A stretch of DNA of 64,000 bases, from contig NZ_KB905141.1 of the NCBI RefSeq assembly GCF_000378225.1, forward strand, positions 511,326 through 575,325, given 5' to 3'. Positions 18,364-22,664 of the stretch are shown one piece after another. The notes under the pieces were generated by a model. That model searched no databases. It was not told the origin of the DNA and saw only the letters and a program-made list of their open reading frames with translations. The DNA is from Methylophilus methylotrophus DSM 46235 = ATCC 53528 (GTDB taxonomy: Bacteria; Pseudomonadota; Gammaproteobacteria; Burkholderiales; Methylophilaceae). The position numbers and the translations under genes were made by a program. Position 1 is the first letter of the stretch. Each line of letters starts with the position of its first letter.

Positions 18364-20235
18364 TTACAGGGCAAACACGTTCAATGCACCGCCGCCAGGA
18401 GCAGCGTTGTACTTGGTCAACTCTTTGTAGCCACCAGCAGCACCCAGTGCGTCGGTGTCAGTCGTCATACCCAGGTTCATCGCAACGCCAGCCCAACCGC
18501 CGATACCGGACAAGATACCTACGTATTGCTTGCCTTTGTTACCATAGGTGAATGCGTTACCAATGGCACCTGAACCCACTTGGAACTTCCACAGCTCTTT
18601 ACCGGATTTCGCATCCACAGCCTTGAACCAGCGGTCCAGGGTACCGTAGAACACCAGGTCAGAGGCAGTCGTCAATGCACCGCTCCAGGCAGAGAACTTC
18701 TCTTTGTTGTACCAGACTTTTTTGTTGGTCATTGGGTCGTAAGCACCGAAACCACCCATCACGCCGTCTGGACCAGCAAACATGGTCAGTGTCGCACCAA
18801 CCCATGGTTGACCAGCAACGTATTTGGACTCAACTGGCTCGTATGTCATACACACGTGGTTCAGTGGAGAGTACATCAGACCAGTTTTTGGAGAGTAAGC
18901 AGCTGGCTGTTGGTCTTTAGTACCCAAAGCCGCTGGGCAGATACCCTTGGCGTTGTAATCCTGGTGAGTAGAATAACGGCCGTCTTTGTTAGGCACGCCT
19001 GTTTTCAGGTCTACATCACTTGCCCAGTTAACGAATGGATGCACTTTTTCAGCAGCGATCAGTGTACCAGTCACCGCATTCCAAGTGTAAGCAAAACCGT
19101 TACGGTCATGGTGCCATGCGTATGTTTTGCCACCTTTGTCGAACAGGATCACTTCATTGACGCCGTCGTAGTCCCACTCATCATGTGGCGTCATTTGCAT
19201 CGCCCATTTAGCCACACCAGTGTCCAAATCACGCGCAGTTACAGTCATAGACCATTTGTTGTCGCCTGGTCGTACATCTGGGTTCCATACGGATGGGTTA
19301 CCTGCACCGTAGTAAACCAGGTTTGTACGTGCATCATATGGCCACCAGCCCCATACAGAACCGCCACCATGTTGCCAGCCGTCTTTAATTGCTTGTGGTT
19401 TCAACCAAGTACGTGTACCCAGCTCTTTTTCGCCACCCTTGATCTGGTCAGCAGACAGACGCTTAAATGAACCACCCTCTTTGTTGCCACCGTTTACGTC
19501 CTGGTAAACAGAAAGCGCGTTGTACAGTGGGTTATCTTTGTTTGTGTTAGCGTCGTGCAATGTTTCAGCATCTGGGCCTGTGGAATACGCTTTCCATGCC
19601 AGAGCGCCGTCTTTCAGGTTGTATGCAGCGATAAAGCAACGTACGCCGAATTCAGCACCTGAACAACCGGTCAATACTTTGTCTTTGATCACATGTGGCG
19701 CGTTGGTGTTAGTTGCACCGACTTTTGGATCAGTGTTTTTAACTTCCCAGATTTTTTTGCCATCTTTAGCATCCAGAGCAACCAGCAAGCCGTCATTCTG
19801 TTGCAGGAATATCTTGCCGTCGCCAAAACCAAGGCCACGTGTCACGTTGTCACAGCACAATACTGCCTGAACGCTTGGGTCTTGTTTAGGGAAATAGGAC
19901 CAGACAATTTTCTGGTTATCGTTTAAATCCAAGGCATACACATTGTTTGGGAAAGCAGTCACGATATACATCATGTTGCCTAAAACAATGGGGGAGCCCT
20001 CGTGACCACGGTTAACGCCAGTGGCGAATGTCCAGGCCATTTTCAGGTTTTTAATATTGCCCTTATTGATTTGTGCCAGGGCGCTGTAGCCTTGGTTGTT
20101 GTGCTGACCGCGTGGATGCACCCAGTTATTTGAGTCTTTCATCGCAGCTTCTTGGTCAGCTGCAGCAAAAGCCAATACAGGCAGGGCCAGCGCAACGCTA
20201 GCAGCAATGCCGAAAGCTGTTTTGGTTTTGATCAT
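18364..20235 (-). CDS. xoxF: Lanthanide-dependent PQQ methanol dehydrogenase XoxF
   Basis: Periplasmic quinoprotein oxidising methanol and passing electrons to a cytochrome c. 623 residues from ATG 20235, preceded by GGAG; upstream in-frame codons lack a ribosome site. A signal peptide ends near LPVLAFA. Adjacent cysteines 127-128 (VLCCDNVTRG) are the PQQ-associated vicinal pair. Metal/PQQ residues by alignment in mind: Glu195 (SGAEFG), Asn313 (GAGNPS), catalytic Asp355, and Asp357 in DYDGVNE. That extra aspartate marks lanthanide (XoxF) enzymes; calcium MxaF has alanine there. An insertion around residues 240-290 lengthens it, which I associate with clade XoxF4 of Methylophilaceae (inference). 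No xoxG or xoxJ lies beside it. Confidence 0.96.
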   Translation of the reverse strand: MIKTKTAFGIAASVALALPVLAFAAADQEAAMKDSNNWVHPRGQHNNQGYSALAQINKGNIKNLKMAWTFATGVNRGHEGSPIVLGNMMYIVTAFPNNVYALDLNDNQKIVWSYFPKQDPSVQAVLCCDNVTRGLGFGDGKIFLQQNDGLLVALDAKDGKKIWEVKNTDPKVGATNTNAPHVIKDKVLTGCSGAEFGVRCFIAAYNLKDGALAWKAYSTGPDAETLHDANTNKDNPLYNALSVYQDVNGGNKEGGSFKRLSADQIKGGEKELGTRTWLKPQAIKDGWQHGGGSVWGWWPYDARTNLVYYGAGNPSVWNPDVRPGDNKWSMTVTARDLDTGVAKWAMQMTPHDEWDYDGVNEVILFDKGGKTYAWHHDRNGFAYTWNAVTGTLIAAEKVHPFVNWASDVDLKTGVPNKDGRYSTHQDYNAKGICPAALGTKDQQPAAYSPKTGLMYSPLNHVCMTYEPVESKYVAGQPWVGATLTMFAGPDGVMGGFGAYDPMTNKKVWYNKEKFSAWSGALTTASDLVFYGTLDRWFKAVDAKSGKELWKFQVGSGAIGNAFTYGNKGKQYVGILSGIGGWAGVAMNLGMTTDTDALGAAGGYKELTKYNAAPGGGALNVFAL

Positions 20236-20275: not shown

Positions 20276-20525
20276 GCATGAAGGAAAATTGCATTGTGCT
20301 TAAGTTATCGCTGGTACTAGGATCCCAGTGAGCCGGATGTTACTTTTTAATACATCTATTAAGCGAATGTAACTGTAATATAAATATCCTCCTACGACAC
20401 CCAGCCAGATTGCGGTTTTATTCATGGGCCAGATAGGGATTTTTTCCTAAAACTTTATGGAATTGCATTTTTTTTGTATCATTCCATCATCGAAGGCCAT
20501 GTCCTAGTATGCCCTTCAGGTAACC

Positions 20526-20585: not shown

Positions 20586-21677
20586 GTGCTAAGACCCTGG
20601 CATTATTCTCTGGTTCTGGATAAGAATTCGCCCTCCTCTATCCACCAACAACTGACCGAACATTTCCGCAGCATGATTGAAGGTGGATCCTGGCTGGGGG
20701 GTAGCGCCCTGCCCAGTTCCCGCGATATTGCCCAGCGCCTGGGCATCAACCGAAAAACCGTTTCACGGGTGTATGAAGAGCTGGCTGCTCAAGGACTTAT
20801 TTATACGCAGCCCAAACGAGGCACGTTTGTTTCTGAAAATCCGCATCACATTCTTTTAGCTCCGCAAAGTGCGGCGAATGCCTCCTCTGTTACAAACACT
20901 GTGGCCAGCAGTATTCAGCAATTAATACAAAAGGCCTGTATTTACCACTTCCGTCGCGTAGCCTTGCATATACACAAGCTGCGTCCGCAAGATTATGATG
21001 TCACTGGCTTATTCGACCTGAAACATATGCTGGCGAACTTGCTGGCGCATGAACGGCGTTACCTGGTCTCGCCAGAACATATTGCCTGTGGCCATTGGCC
21101 CGCCCTACAAACAGCACTGGTCCATAGCCTCAATCTTGGTCAAGGGTATTTGCTGATTGATCATACCGTCAGCCCTGTTTTGGAGTTGCGCCTGAGAAGA
21201 CAAGGCGTCGCGGTCCTGCGCCTACCGGAAATGAATATCGGACAAGTGAGACTCTTTATTGAACAGGTTGAAAAATATTGCATCAATTACCCGGTAGCCG
21301 CTATCTGGTGTGATAGCGCCAGCCTCATTCAGCAGCAACAGGCTGAAACTGAACAAGCCCTGTTGTTGCAAAAACTGTTTGACTACCATCTTTTACTGAT
21401 TGACGATCAGCGTCATCGCCTCCCTGATCTGCAAGACGACATGCCTTTGTCAACCAAATACGCGAAAAGTTACTTGCTCGGCAGCTTGTATGGCAACCAT
21501 TGCGATATGTTTAACCTGACTTATGTCGCCAGCAATTTAGGGTTCAGCGAGGATTTTCTGAATGAATTAAATGAAGAGCATCAACCGGCATTGCTTAATA
21601 TGCTGGCGCAAAGCGAACTGATCAAACGAGGCGAATATAAAAAACTGTTGTCAACCATTCAACGCTTGTTGCCATAA
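20586..21677 (+). CDS. GntR/MocR-like transcriptional regulator with degenerate aminotransferase domain
   Basis: 363 residues from a GTG start preceded by AAGGTAG. The N-terminal winged helix (about 10-80; LPSSRDIAQRLGINRKTVSRVYEEL) is clearly GntR family. The rest resembles a shortened, degenerate fold-type-I aminotransferase domain as in MocR proteins, which normally run to 450-500 residues. Where MocR proteins carry the PLP lysine in a G-T-x-SK motif, this one reads YLLGSLYGNHCDMFNLTY, without lysine, so PLP binding by a Schiff base is unlikely. It diverges from xoxF and is a candidate regulator of it; that link is inference from position. Confidence 0.8.
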   Translation: MLRPWHYSLVLDKNSPSSIHQQLTEHFRSMIEGGSWLGGSALPSSRDIAQRLGINRKTVSRVYEELAAQGLIYTQPKRGTFVSENPHHILLAPQSAANASSVTNTVASSIQQLIQKACIYHFRRVALHIHKLRPQDYDVTGLFDLKHMLANLLAHERRYLVSPEHIACGHWPALQTALVHSLNLGQGYLLIDHTVSPVLELRLRRQGVAVLRLPEMNIGQVRLFIEQVEKYCINYPVAAIWCDSASLIQQQQAETEQALLLQKLFDYHLLLIDDQRHRLPDLQDDMPLSTKYAKSYLLGSLYGNHCDMFNLTYVASNLGFSEDFLNELNEEHQPALLNMLAQSELIKRGEYKKLLSTIQRLLP

Positions 21678-21717: not shown

Positions 21718-21733
21718 TGGTTATTAACAACCA
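21718..21733. promoter_or_regulatory. Upstream inverted repeat, possible enhancer site for sigma-54 activator
   Basis: TGGTTATTAACAACCA is a palindrome except for one base pair and lies about 103-118 bases upstream of the predicted start of the small RNA at 21836/21837. That is a typical distance for the enhancer bound by a sigma-54 activator. It does not match the NtrC consensus, so the activator is not identified. Confidence 0.4.
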
Positions 21734-21809
21734 CCAAAAATTCAGGATAAATTCCTATTTACACAAAAAATACACTTCCAAGTCAATCACTTAAACTCAC
21801 CAAACATCA

Positions 21810-21825
21810 TGGCACGTTAAATGCT
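21810..21825 (+). promoter_or_regulatory. Sigma-54 (-24/-12) promoter
   Basis: TGGCACGTTAAATGCT matches the RpoN consensus TGGCACG-N4-TTGCW at every defined position except one (A for the first T of TTGC). GG and GC have the required spacing. The expected transcript start is 21836-21837, which is exactly the first base of the GGGAGTG arm of the RNA structure downstream. Confidence 0.7.
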
Positions 21826-21836
21826 GTTGAATCATT

Positions 21837-21957
21837 GGGAGTGAGCTATCACTAGGACCGATACCAGCTGACTGCATATCCGCTGGTATCGGGGTAGACA
21901 CTCCCTCACTTGCATATTGATCTCATGCAAAAAAGGCACCGCATTGCGGTGCCTTTT
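21837..21957 (+). ncRNA. Predicted structured small RNA with its own promoter and terminator
   Basis: About 121 nt, no open reading frame. Hairpin 1 has an outer stem GGGAGTG/CACTCCC (21837-21843 with 21899-21905) and an inner stem CCGATACCAGC/GCTGGTATCGG (21858-21868 with 21882-21892), joined by an asymmetric internal loop containing CACTAGGA. Hairpin 2 is TTGCAT/ATGCAA (21910-21915 with 21925-21930). Hairpin 3 is the terminator. Promoter start, structure and terminator define a compact unit between the MocR-like gene and the LanPepSY-like gene. I do not recognise a known family. CTAGGAC in the internal loop is complementary to the LanPepSY leader mRNA. An unrecognised riboswitch-like or protein-binding RNA is an alternative. 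Confidence 0.65.
21931..21957. terminator. Intrinsic terminator of the small RNA, also facing the LanPepSY-like gene
   Basis: AAAAGGCACCGC - ATT - GCGGTGCCTTTT, perfect 12-base arms, with T-rich sequence on the plus-strand side and A-rich on the other, so it can end transcripts from both directions. Confidence 0.93.
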
Positions 21958-22013
21958 GCTTTTGAGTATCACCGACTGCAGGGAACGACAGCCGCATCAC
22001 TCCACCGGTCAAT

Positions 22014-22541
22014 TTACTCCTGACCGATTTGATACACTTCGTAGCTGGTCTCTACGATTTTACCGCTGGTAGCATCCACTTCGACTTTTACTTCTTCGTT
22101 GTCGGCTTCCAGAATATCAAATTCGTAAGATGCTTTGCCATCTGGCTCGAGCTCATATTCAACTTCAACCACTTTGCCAGGATGCGCTGCAAGTGCAGTG
22201 GCCTTGGCGTCTTCTTCAGTCACTTTAGCCAGTGCTTTGAATCTTTCGTCATCCACCGAAACTTCTTCTTCTACTTCTGTAATCTTGCCTGTTTTTGCAT
22301 TGCACTCGATATCCCATGCTTTGCCATCGTTGGATTGCACATCAAATTCGTATACTAATTGCTTACGCTCTGACTTGGCTTCCACCTTGACAATTTTGCC
22401 GTCGTGTTTGGACAAGGCTGCTTTCACGCACTTACCCAAGCTGTCGTAAGCCTTTGGCTTGATGGTTTCATGGTCAGCGAATGCCTGACCGGACAACAAA
22501 CCGCATACCGCGGCTACCAGAATTGACGCTTTAACTTGCAT
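22014..22541 (-). CDS. Periplasmic tandem-PepSY protein, LanPepSY-like (candidate lanthanide binder)
   Basis: 175 residues from ATG 22541, which follows AAGGAG; the frame is open further upstream but lacks a ribosome site. Signal peptide MQVKASILVAAVCGLLSGQAFA, then two PepSY repeats: about 33-92 (LVYEFDV and NAKTGKITEVE) and 107-166 (ASYEFDI and DATSGKIVETS). The mature protein is very rich in Glu and Asp, and Cys38 and Cys80 could pair. LanPepSY, a two-PepSY periplasmic protein that binds lanthanide ions, is known from Methylobacillus flagellatus. Architecture, acidity and proximity to xoxF support orthology, but I could not align the two. Other PepSY proteins inhibit proteases or bind calcium. 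Confidence 0.8.
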   Translation of the reverse strand: MQVKASILVAAVCGLLSGQAFADHETIKPKAYDSLGKCVKAALSKHDGKIVKVEAKSERKQLVYEFDVQSNDGKAWDIECNAKTGKITEVEEEVSVDDERFKALAKVTEEDAKATALAAHPGKVVEVEYELEPDGKASYEFDILEADNEEVKVEVDATSGKIVETSYEVYQIGQE

Positions 22542-22664
22542 AATGATCTCCTTGTTTAAAGTCATGAATGAAAGTAATGAAACAGGCGCTAGGACGCCAT
22601 ATTCCAAAATCCACAACGCTGAGAAGAATATCAAAAACGCGATATGCTTTTGAAAATATTACAC

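Follow-up and report, generated by a model that had tools for sequence, protein, structure and literature searches.

Next to a xoxF gene, the genome of Methylophilus methylotrophus DSM 46235 carries a predicted sigma-54-dependent small-RNA gene of Methylophilus, which apparently belongs to a conserved and undescribed small-RNA family of the Methylophilaceae. Our favoured reading, held with moderate confidence, is that this RNA acts in trans and represses xoxF-B and a PepSY gene by base pairing, within a metal-economy response that most likely concerns lanthanides. At the level of the sequence, this reading builds on the anatomy of the gene, its conservation, its complementarity to two gene starts, one co-change of RNA and target, and a dyad and sigma-54-like sites that it shares with other genes.

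Anatomy and neighbourhood of the small-RNA gene

The initial annotation of the analysed stretch of 64,000 nucleotides (hereafter the window) had proposed a compact small-RNA unit under sigma-54 control, with a transcript of about 121 nt, located beside xoxF and a PepSY gene and belonging to no known RNA family, and our sequence analysis bears out each of these points (Table 1). From the position of the RpoN site, +1 is predicted at 21836, and the fold of 21837-21960 reaches -59.7 kcal/mol (z -7.5), which none of 200 shuffles equalled. The predicted fold places a weak UGCAU/AUGCA hairpin between the 5' hairpin and the intrinsic terminator ending at 21957; the region shows no enrichment of terminator-like sites in general (2 found vs 2.8 expected). 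No Rfam family was found at the small-RNA locus at gathering score and nothing usable at relaxed thresholds, the best sub-threshold match being STnc40 on the opposite strand (E 0.028, largely terminator-driven).

Table 1. Features of the small-RNA gene, its neighbourhood and related loci (window positions unless a contig is named)
Feature	Position	Strand	Remark
Small-RNA gene	21836..21957	+	predicted transcript ~121-122 nt; fold z -7.5, homologues
RpoN (-24/-12) promoter TGGCACGTTAAATGC	21810..21824	+	strict form in 24/29 loci
Upstream dyad TGGTTATTAACAACCA	21718..21733	+	presumed enhancer site of sigma-54 activator
GGA-N5-TCC box AGGATAAATTCCTAT	21744..21758	+	
5' hairpin (long; P1, P2, 7-nt bulge, P3)	21837..21905	+	fold, alignment
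Helix P1	21837-21843/21899-21905	+	part of 5' hairpin
Helix P2	21846-21850/21893-21897	+	part of 5' hairpin
Helix P3	from 21858/21892	+	part of 5' hairpin
Bulge ACTAGGA	21851..21857	+	invariant; second predicted pairing surface, to CCUAG sites
Seed ACTTGCATATTGATCTC	21908..21924	+	complement of SD/start of xoxF-B and (1 mismatch) PepSY
Intrinsic terminator	21931..21957	+	12-bp stem
xoxF-A	18364..20235	-	PQQ methanol dehydrogenase
TCCTAGT upstream of xoxF-A	20316..20322	-	
GntR/MocR-like regulator	20586..21677	+	between xoxF and RNA
PepSY gene	22014..22541	-	175 aa, two PepSY stretches, LanPepSY-like
SD/start of PepSY	22534..22550	-	complement of seed (16/17)
PepSY leader hairpin GGCG-TCCTAG-CGCC	22585..22598	-	
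Second RNA copy, own genome	C6:159654-159788		
xoxF-C, third xoxF	G000:C5:122940-124781		72% identical to window's xoxF

The neighbourhood recurs in relatives. Of 18 Methylophilus genomes, 17 have a xoxF start about 2 kb away from the RNA and in the same contig (G079, the exception, is fragmented). So do 9 of 12 small-RNA genomes of g18/g19, the ones in which xoxF was sought; in G138, G139 and G156, RNA and xoxF are on different contigs. Within ~1.5 kb, a PepSY gene with a complementary start is convergent to the RNA at 14 of 15 Methylophilus loci (miss G068); in the 8-kb loci of G066, G069 and G078, the start-pattern search returned a complementary-type start at xoxF only. LanPepSY itself is described, in the available text of the source, as a periplasmic protein of ~19 kDa with two PepSY domains that binds lanthanides (PMC12482762). 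The GntR/MocR-like regulator is without a recognised aminotransferase domain.

Conservation, distribution and a second copy

A DNA search detected the segment in 15 of 187 Methylophilaceae genomes, all of them Methylophilus. More diverged relatives were recovered with a model of the full RNA (R1), many weak matches of which covered the terminator only and were excluded by eye, and a covariance model of the core (R2) placed relatives in 34 of the 187 genomes and 3 of 24 genera (Methylophilus 18/22, g18 13, g19 3). Spread beyond the Methylophilaceae was rejected: an order-wide sample of 399 genomes, searched with stricter filters, yielded five genomes with matches, three of them clear and from Methylophilus and two weak and from elsewhere.

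The stems are kept in these homologues, as is the promoter described below; the initial annotation had named the loss of either as the observation that would speak against the gene. P2 pairs in all 150 cells of a 30-row core alignment, and three of its five pairs have changed on both sides. For the 7-pair structure, one of 500 shuffles and none of the slid controls had a covariation score as high, and the number of pair types is ordinary (336/500 shuffles). The bulge ACUAGGA is invariant in 30/30 core rows, which were chosen by a pattern containing the motif (one locus was dropped by this selection), and it recurs in 7/7 further R2 matches fetched later, R2 itself rewarding the motif.

In most Methylophilus genomes the RNA is present twice, the second copy sharing the bulge and having a seed that differs little; further such loci lie at G064:C1:747745 and G066:C1:1580929. 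None of 13 second-copy loci has an RpoN site. A GGA-N5-TCC box stands ~50 nt upstream of the second RNA, and similar boxes upstream of xoxF-A, xoxF-B and the first RNA suggest a second shared regulator.

Promoter and upstream elements

Within the window, TGGCACGNNNNNTGCT is matched exactly at the RpoN site of the small RNA and nowhere else. With up to two mismatches, the RpoN pattern has 30 matches in the window vs 27.9 expected; since such matches are no rarer than chance, the site alone proves little, and the case for the promoter therefore rests on conservation. TGG[CT]A[CT]-N5-[AT]TGC is kept ~40 nt before the core motif in 24 of 29 homologous loci, and the five loci without the strict site (G107, G132, G127, G148 and G130) retain the GG and GC elements, as judged by eye. 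The inverted repeat to which the initial annotation had drawn attention is the dyad TGGTTATTAACAACCA, ~92 bp before the RpoN site. Related forms of it are kept across three genera; the inspected g18 and g19 loci have versions close to GGTTG-N4-CAACC, often in tandem.

Sigma-54 control could also mean that the same base-pairing RNA reports nitrogen or carbon status through an NtrC-type activator and shifts methanol oxidation from XoxF to MxaF. An NtrC-like protein does appear, by eye, among the six full enhancer-binding proteins of the genome, but the dyad does not resemble the NtrC site and is found before TonB-receptor genes, and we consider this signal unlikely. It would agree with a study of Methylophilus whose available text reports strong expression of mxaFI with nitrate and more xoxF with ammonium (PMC5723320). 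mxaF was rejected as a target, its starts differing from the seed target by eye, and the RpoN pattern was found in none of 16 stretches of 1 kb (one containing Ns).

Sigma-54 also marks the third xoxF copy: xoxF-C keeps the site TGGCAC-N5-TTGCA in 15/15 aligned rows and is adjoined by an enhancer-binding protein gene (C5:121165). An activator common to xoxF-C and the RNA was rejected, as xoxF-C has a different upstream motif.

Predicted pairing with the starts of xoxF-B and PepSY

The segment ACUUGCAUAUUGAUCUC of the RNA is the full complement of the SD/start region of xoxF-B, GAGATCAATATGCAAGT. The 15-letter pattern GAGATCANTATGCAAG is matched exactly at three places in the 2.86-Mb genome, namely in the RNA and at the starts of PepSY and xoxF-B; the one match with a single mismatch opens only a 40-aa frame. 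Matches with two mismatches include some apparent gene starts, e.g. that of a ribosomal-protein-like gene, and further targets are therefore possible; matches to the seed target with three mismatches are common (123 vs 20 in the reversed control), because the seed target resembles a ribosome site.

The xoxF-B target site is identical in 14/14 small-RNA genomes compared. When each RNA is set against its own xoxF-B, all 17 positions form Watson-Crick pairs in eight genomes, with one G-U in two and one mismatch in four. Pairing with the own PepSY start is imperfect at all 14 loci, with one mismatch at one, two at 11 (two of these also containing one G-U) and three at two. The start of xoxF-A has no seed match, so that of the two predicted pairing surfaces it offers only the bulge site. 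We regard the xoxF target sites as well supported and the PepSY site as weaker but consistent, as far as sequence comparison goes. In G063, the starts of two extra xoxF copies depart from the seed target by one mismatch and by two, respectively.

RNA and target have changed together in G066, G069 and G078, where xoxF-B AATATG has become AACATG and RNA ATTGATC has become GTTGATC; these three genomes form one clade, and the co-change is probably a single event. Own pairs have mean energies of -28.2 kcal/mol in these genomes and -26.4 kcal/mol in the main group, and the main RNA on the changed mRNA gives -22.5 kcal/mol. The reverse swap, the changed RNA on the unchanged target, still pairs at -27.1 kcal/mol, and the co-change thus passes through a tolerated G-U. 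Of 2000 shuffled seeds, not one equalled the observed xoxF-B or PepSY energies. Energy alone would not have singled out the targets: PepSY ranks first of 62 ORFs in the window (-25.3, next -23.9), and this ranking is not decisive.

The invariant bulge and its CCUAG sites

The bulge ACUAGGA is complementary to CCUAG sites in xoxF, PepSY and TonB-receptor leaders. CCTAG occurs upstream of xoxF-A in 14/14 rows, upstream of xoxF-B in 13 of 15 aligned rows (misses G073 and G063) and in 13 of 14 PepSY leaders (G059 has TTCTAG). The hairpin that holds it in the PepSY leaders is strong and varies in its stem; those of the xoxF leaders are weak, and CCTAG is fully unpaired in 8 of 14 xoxF-A and 5 of 15 xoxF-B rows.

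Within ~170 nt, CCTAG accompanies 25 of 26 xoxF genes beside the RNA (miss G172) vs 3 of 20 in genomes without a detected RNA (Fisher p 1e-8, for genomes that are related and groups that differ in xoxF type). The three are G125, whose contig starts before the expected RNA, G109, and G070, which is 88% complete. This count covers xoxF genes with enough upstream sequence; it left out G138 (partial), G139 (no upstream sequence) and 7 + 11 xoxF genes whose start was not located. Other xoxF copies of the g18/g19 small-RNA genomes carry no CCTAG (0/7). In the own genome, TCCTAG-N35-65-GGAGAT has three matches vs four in the reversed control, a count not above chance; the point is the identity of the matched genes, two of which are PepSY and xoxF-B.

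CCUAG and the start-site match might instead be DNA- or protein-binding elements, with the RNA binding a protein such as CsrA at the GGA of its bulge. An invariant GGA in an unpaired bulge would suit such a role, as would the persistence of CCTAG in xoxF-B of G070, where the RNA was not found. Protein-titrating RNAs, however, carry several GGA sites and this RNA has a single one, and protein binding would leave the 17-nt start-codon complementarity and its co-change unexplained, which makes it very improbable.

A dyad shared with TonB-receptor genes

Across eight genomes, TGGTTGNNNNCAACC has 38 forward and 29 reverse matches vs 4 and 6 in the reversed control, palindromes being scored on both strands. 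Seven of 15 inspected dyad loci precede genes with a TonB-receptor plug domain. Downstream of the dyad, at 100-133 nt, each of the seven has GG-N8-TTGC, a pattern chosen after reading the receptor loci and expected 0.14 times per 260 nt at even base use. CCTAG lies near the start codon in five of the seven, TCTAGG in one, and the own receptor has neither. Among the other inspected loci, one precedes a PepSY gene (G127, where no RpoN-like pattern was found), one precedes a FecI/FecR-like pair, one is flanked by genes for a MoxR-like ATPase (by eye) and a FabA-like protein, and one is ambiguous; four matches in the own genome are in or near unrelated genes. At G148:C6:47120, a dyad and a sigma-54-like site stand before a gene for a MoxR-like AAA ATPase (by eye). 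The own genome has nine loci with a sigma-54-activator domain, including the six full enhancer-binding proteins; the dyad occurs at none of these nine fetched loci, and no activator could be linked to it in this way.

The regulon might serve the economy of iron or PQQ rather than of lanthanides. The best partial models of the receptors are FecA for the own receptor and PqqU for that of one relative, both far below cut-off, and the FecI/FecR-like pair carries the dyad; the predicted targets, by contrast, include no iron proteins: one is xoxF, the lanthanide enzyme, and the other is LanPepSY-like. We find an iron or PQQ signal quite improbable.

Proposed mechanism

For the lanthanide-related RNA that we favour, an enhancer-binding protein would bind the TGGTTG-N4-CAACC-type dyad, and sigma-54 RNA polymerase would then make the RNA. 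Its ACUUGCAUAUUGAUCUC segment would pair with the SD and start codon of the xoxF-B and PepSY mRNAs and block translation; since this pairing lies over the ribosome site, repression of XoxF-B and PepSY is predicted. The bulge would provide a second contact, with CCUAG in xoxF-A, xoxF-B, PepSY and some TonB-receptor leaders. Metal uptake would go up and metal-using proteins down.

As the dyad is found before TonB-receptor genes too, a metal-economy response of this kind explains the pattern most simply, and we regard it as plausible. XoxF is a lanthanide enzyme and LanPepSY a lanthanide-binding protein according to the available text of PMC12482762, and lanthanide shortage is for this reason the signal we favour. 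Transcription, repression, the activator and lanthanide as the metal are all what we infer from these patterns. More tentatively, lanthanide shortage may act through a sigma-54 activator that induces both lanthanide-uptake TonB receptors and the RNA, which would shut off XoxF and PepSY by pairing and use the bulge as a family-wide second seed; this would be the first lanthanide-sparing RNA. If true, it would constitute an RNA-based economy response for rare-earth metals.

Comparison with known systems

A literature search of titles and abstract starts, which covered few subscription papers, returned no description of such an RNA. CrcZ/CrcY and NrsZ are sigma-54 small RNAs of pseudomonads that act by protein titration. 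The Methylophilus RNA resembles them in being short and, by prediction, sigma-54-driven. It differs in its complementarity to target sites, and CrcZ-like titration found no support, given the lack of an Rfam match and the single A-run (by eye). Of the original interpretation, the sigma-54 small RNA is upheld, and the likeness to CrcZ/NrsZ is not supported; the evidence favours a metal-uptake regulon and pairing with the mRNAs of xoxF, PepSY and TonB receptors.

A closer parallel in predicted function are the iron-sparing small RNAs RyhB and PrrF, with which the RNA would share a place in a metal-uptake regulon and a mode of action, pairing with mRNAs of metal proteins at their ribosome sites. 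These are controlled by Fur, whereas sigma-54 and an enhancer-type activator are predicted here, together with xoxF/PepSY targets and a structured bulge as second seed; the RNA has no sequence relation to them (no Rfam match).

Among lanthanide-switch regulators, MxbDM, MxcQE, MxaYB and PedSR determine the choice of methanol or ethanol dehydrogenase; the regulators of lanthanide/calcium methanol dehydrogenase choice named in the available text of PMC11845868 are proteins, and the same text calls for more work on this choice. Unlike these protein regulators, the Methylophilus RNA would act on mRNA. Predicted to pair at xoxF and PepSY starts, it would add a post-transcriptional layer to dehydrogenase choice, and the methanol dehydrogenase switch in Methylophilaceae would become directly testable.
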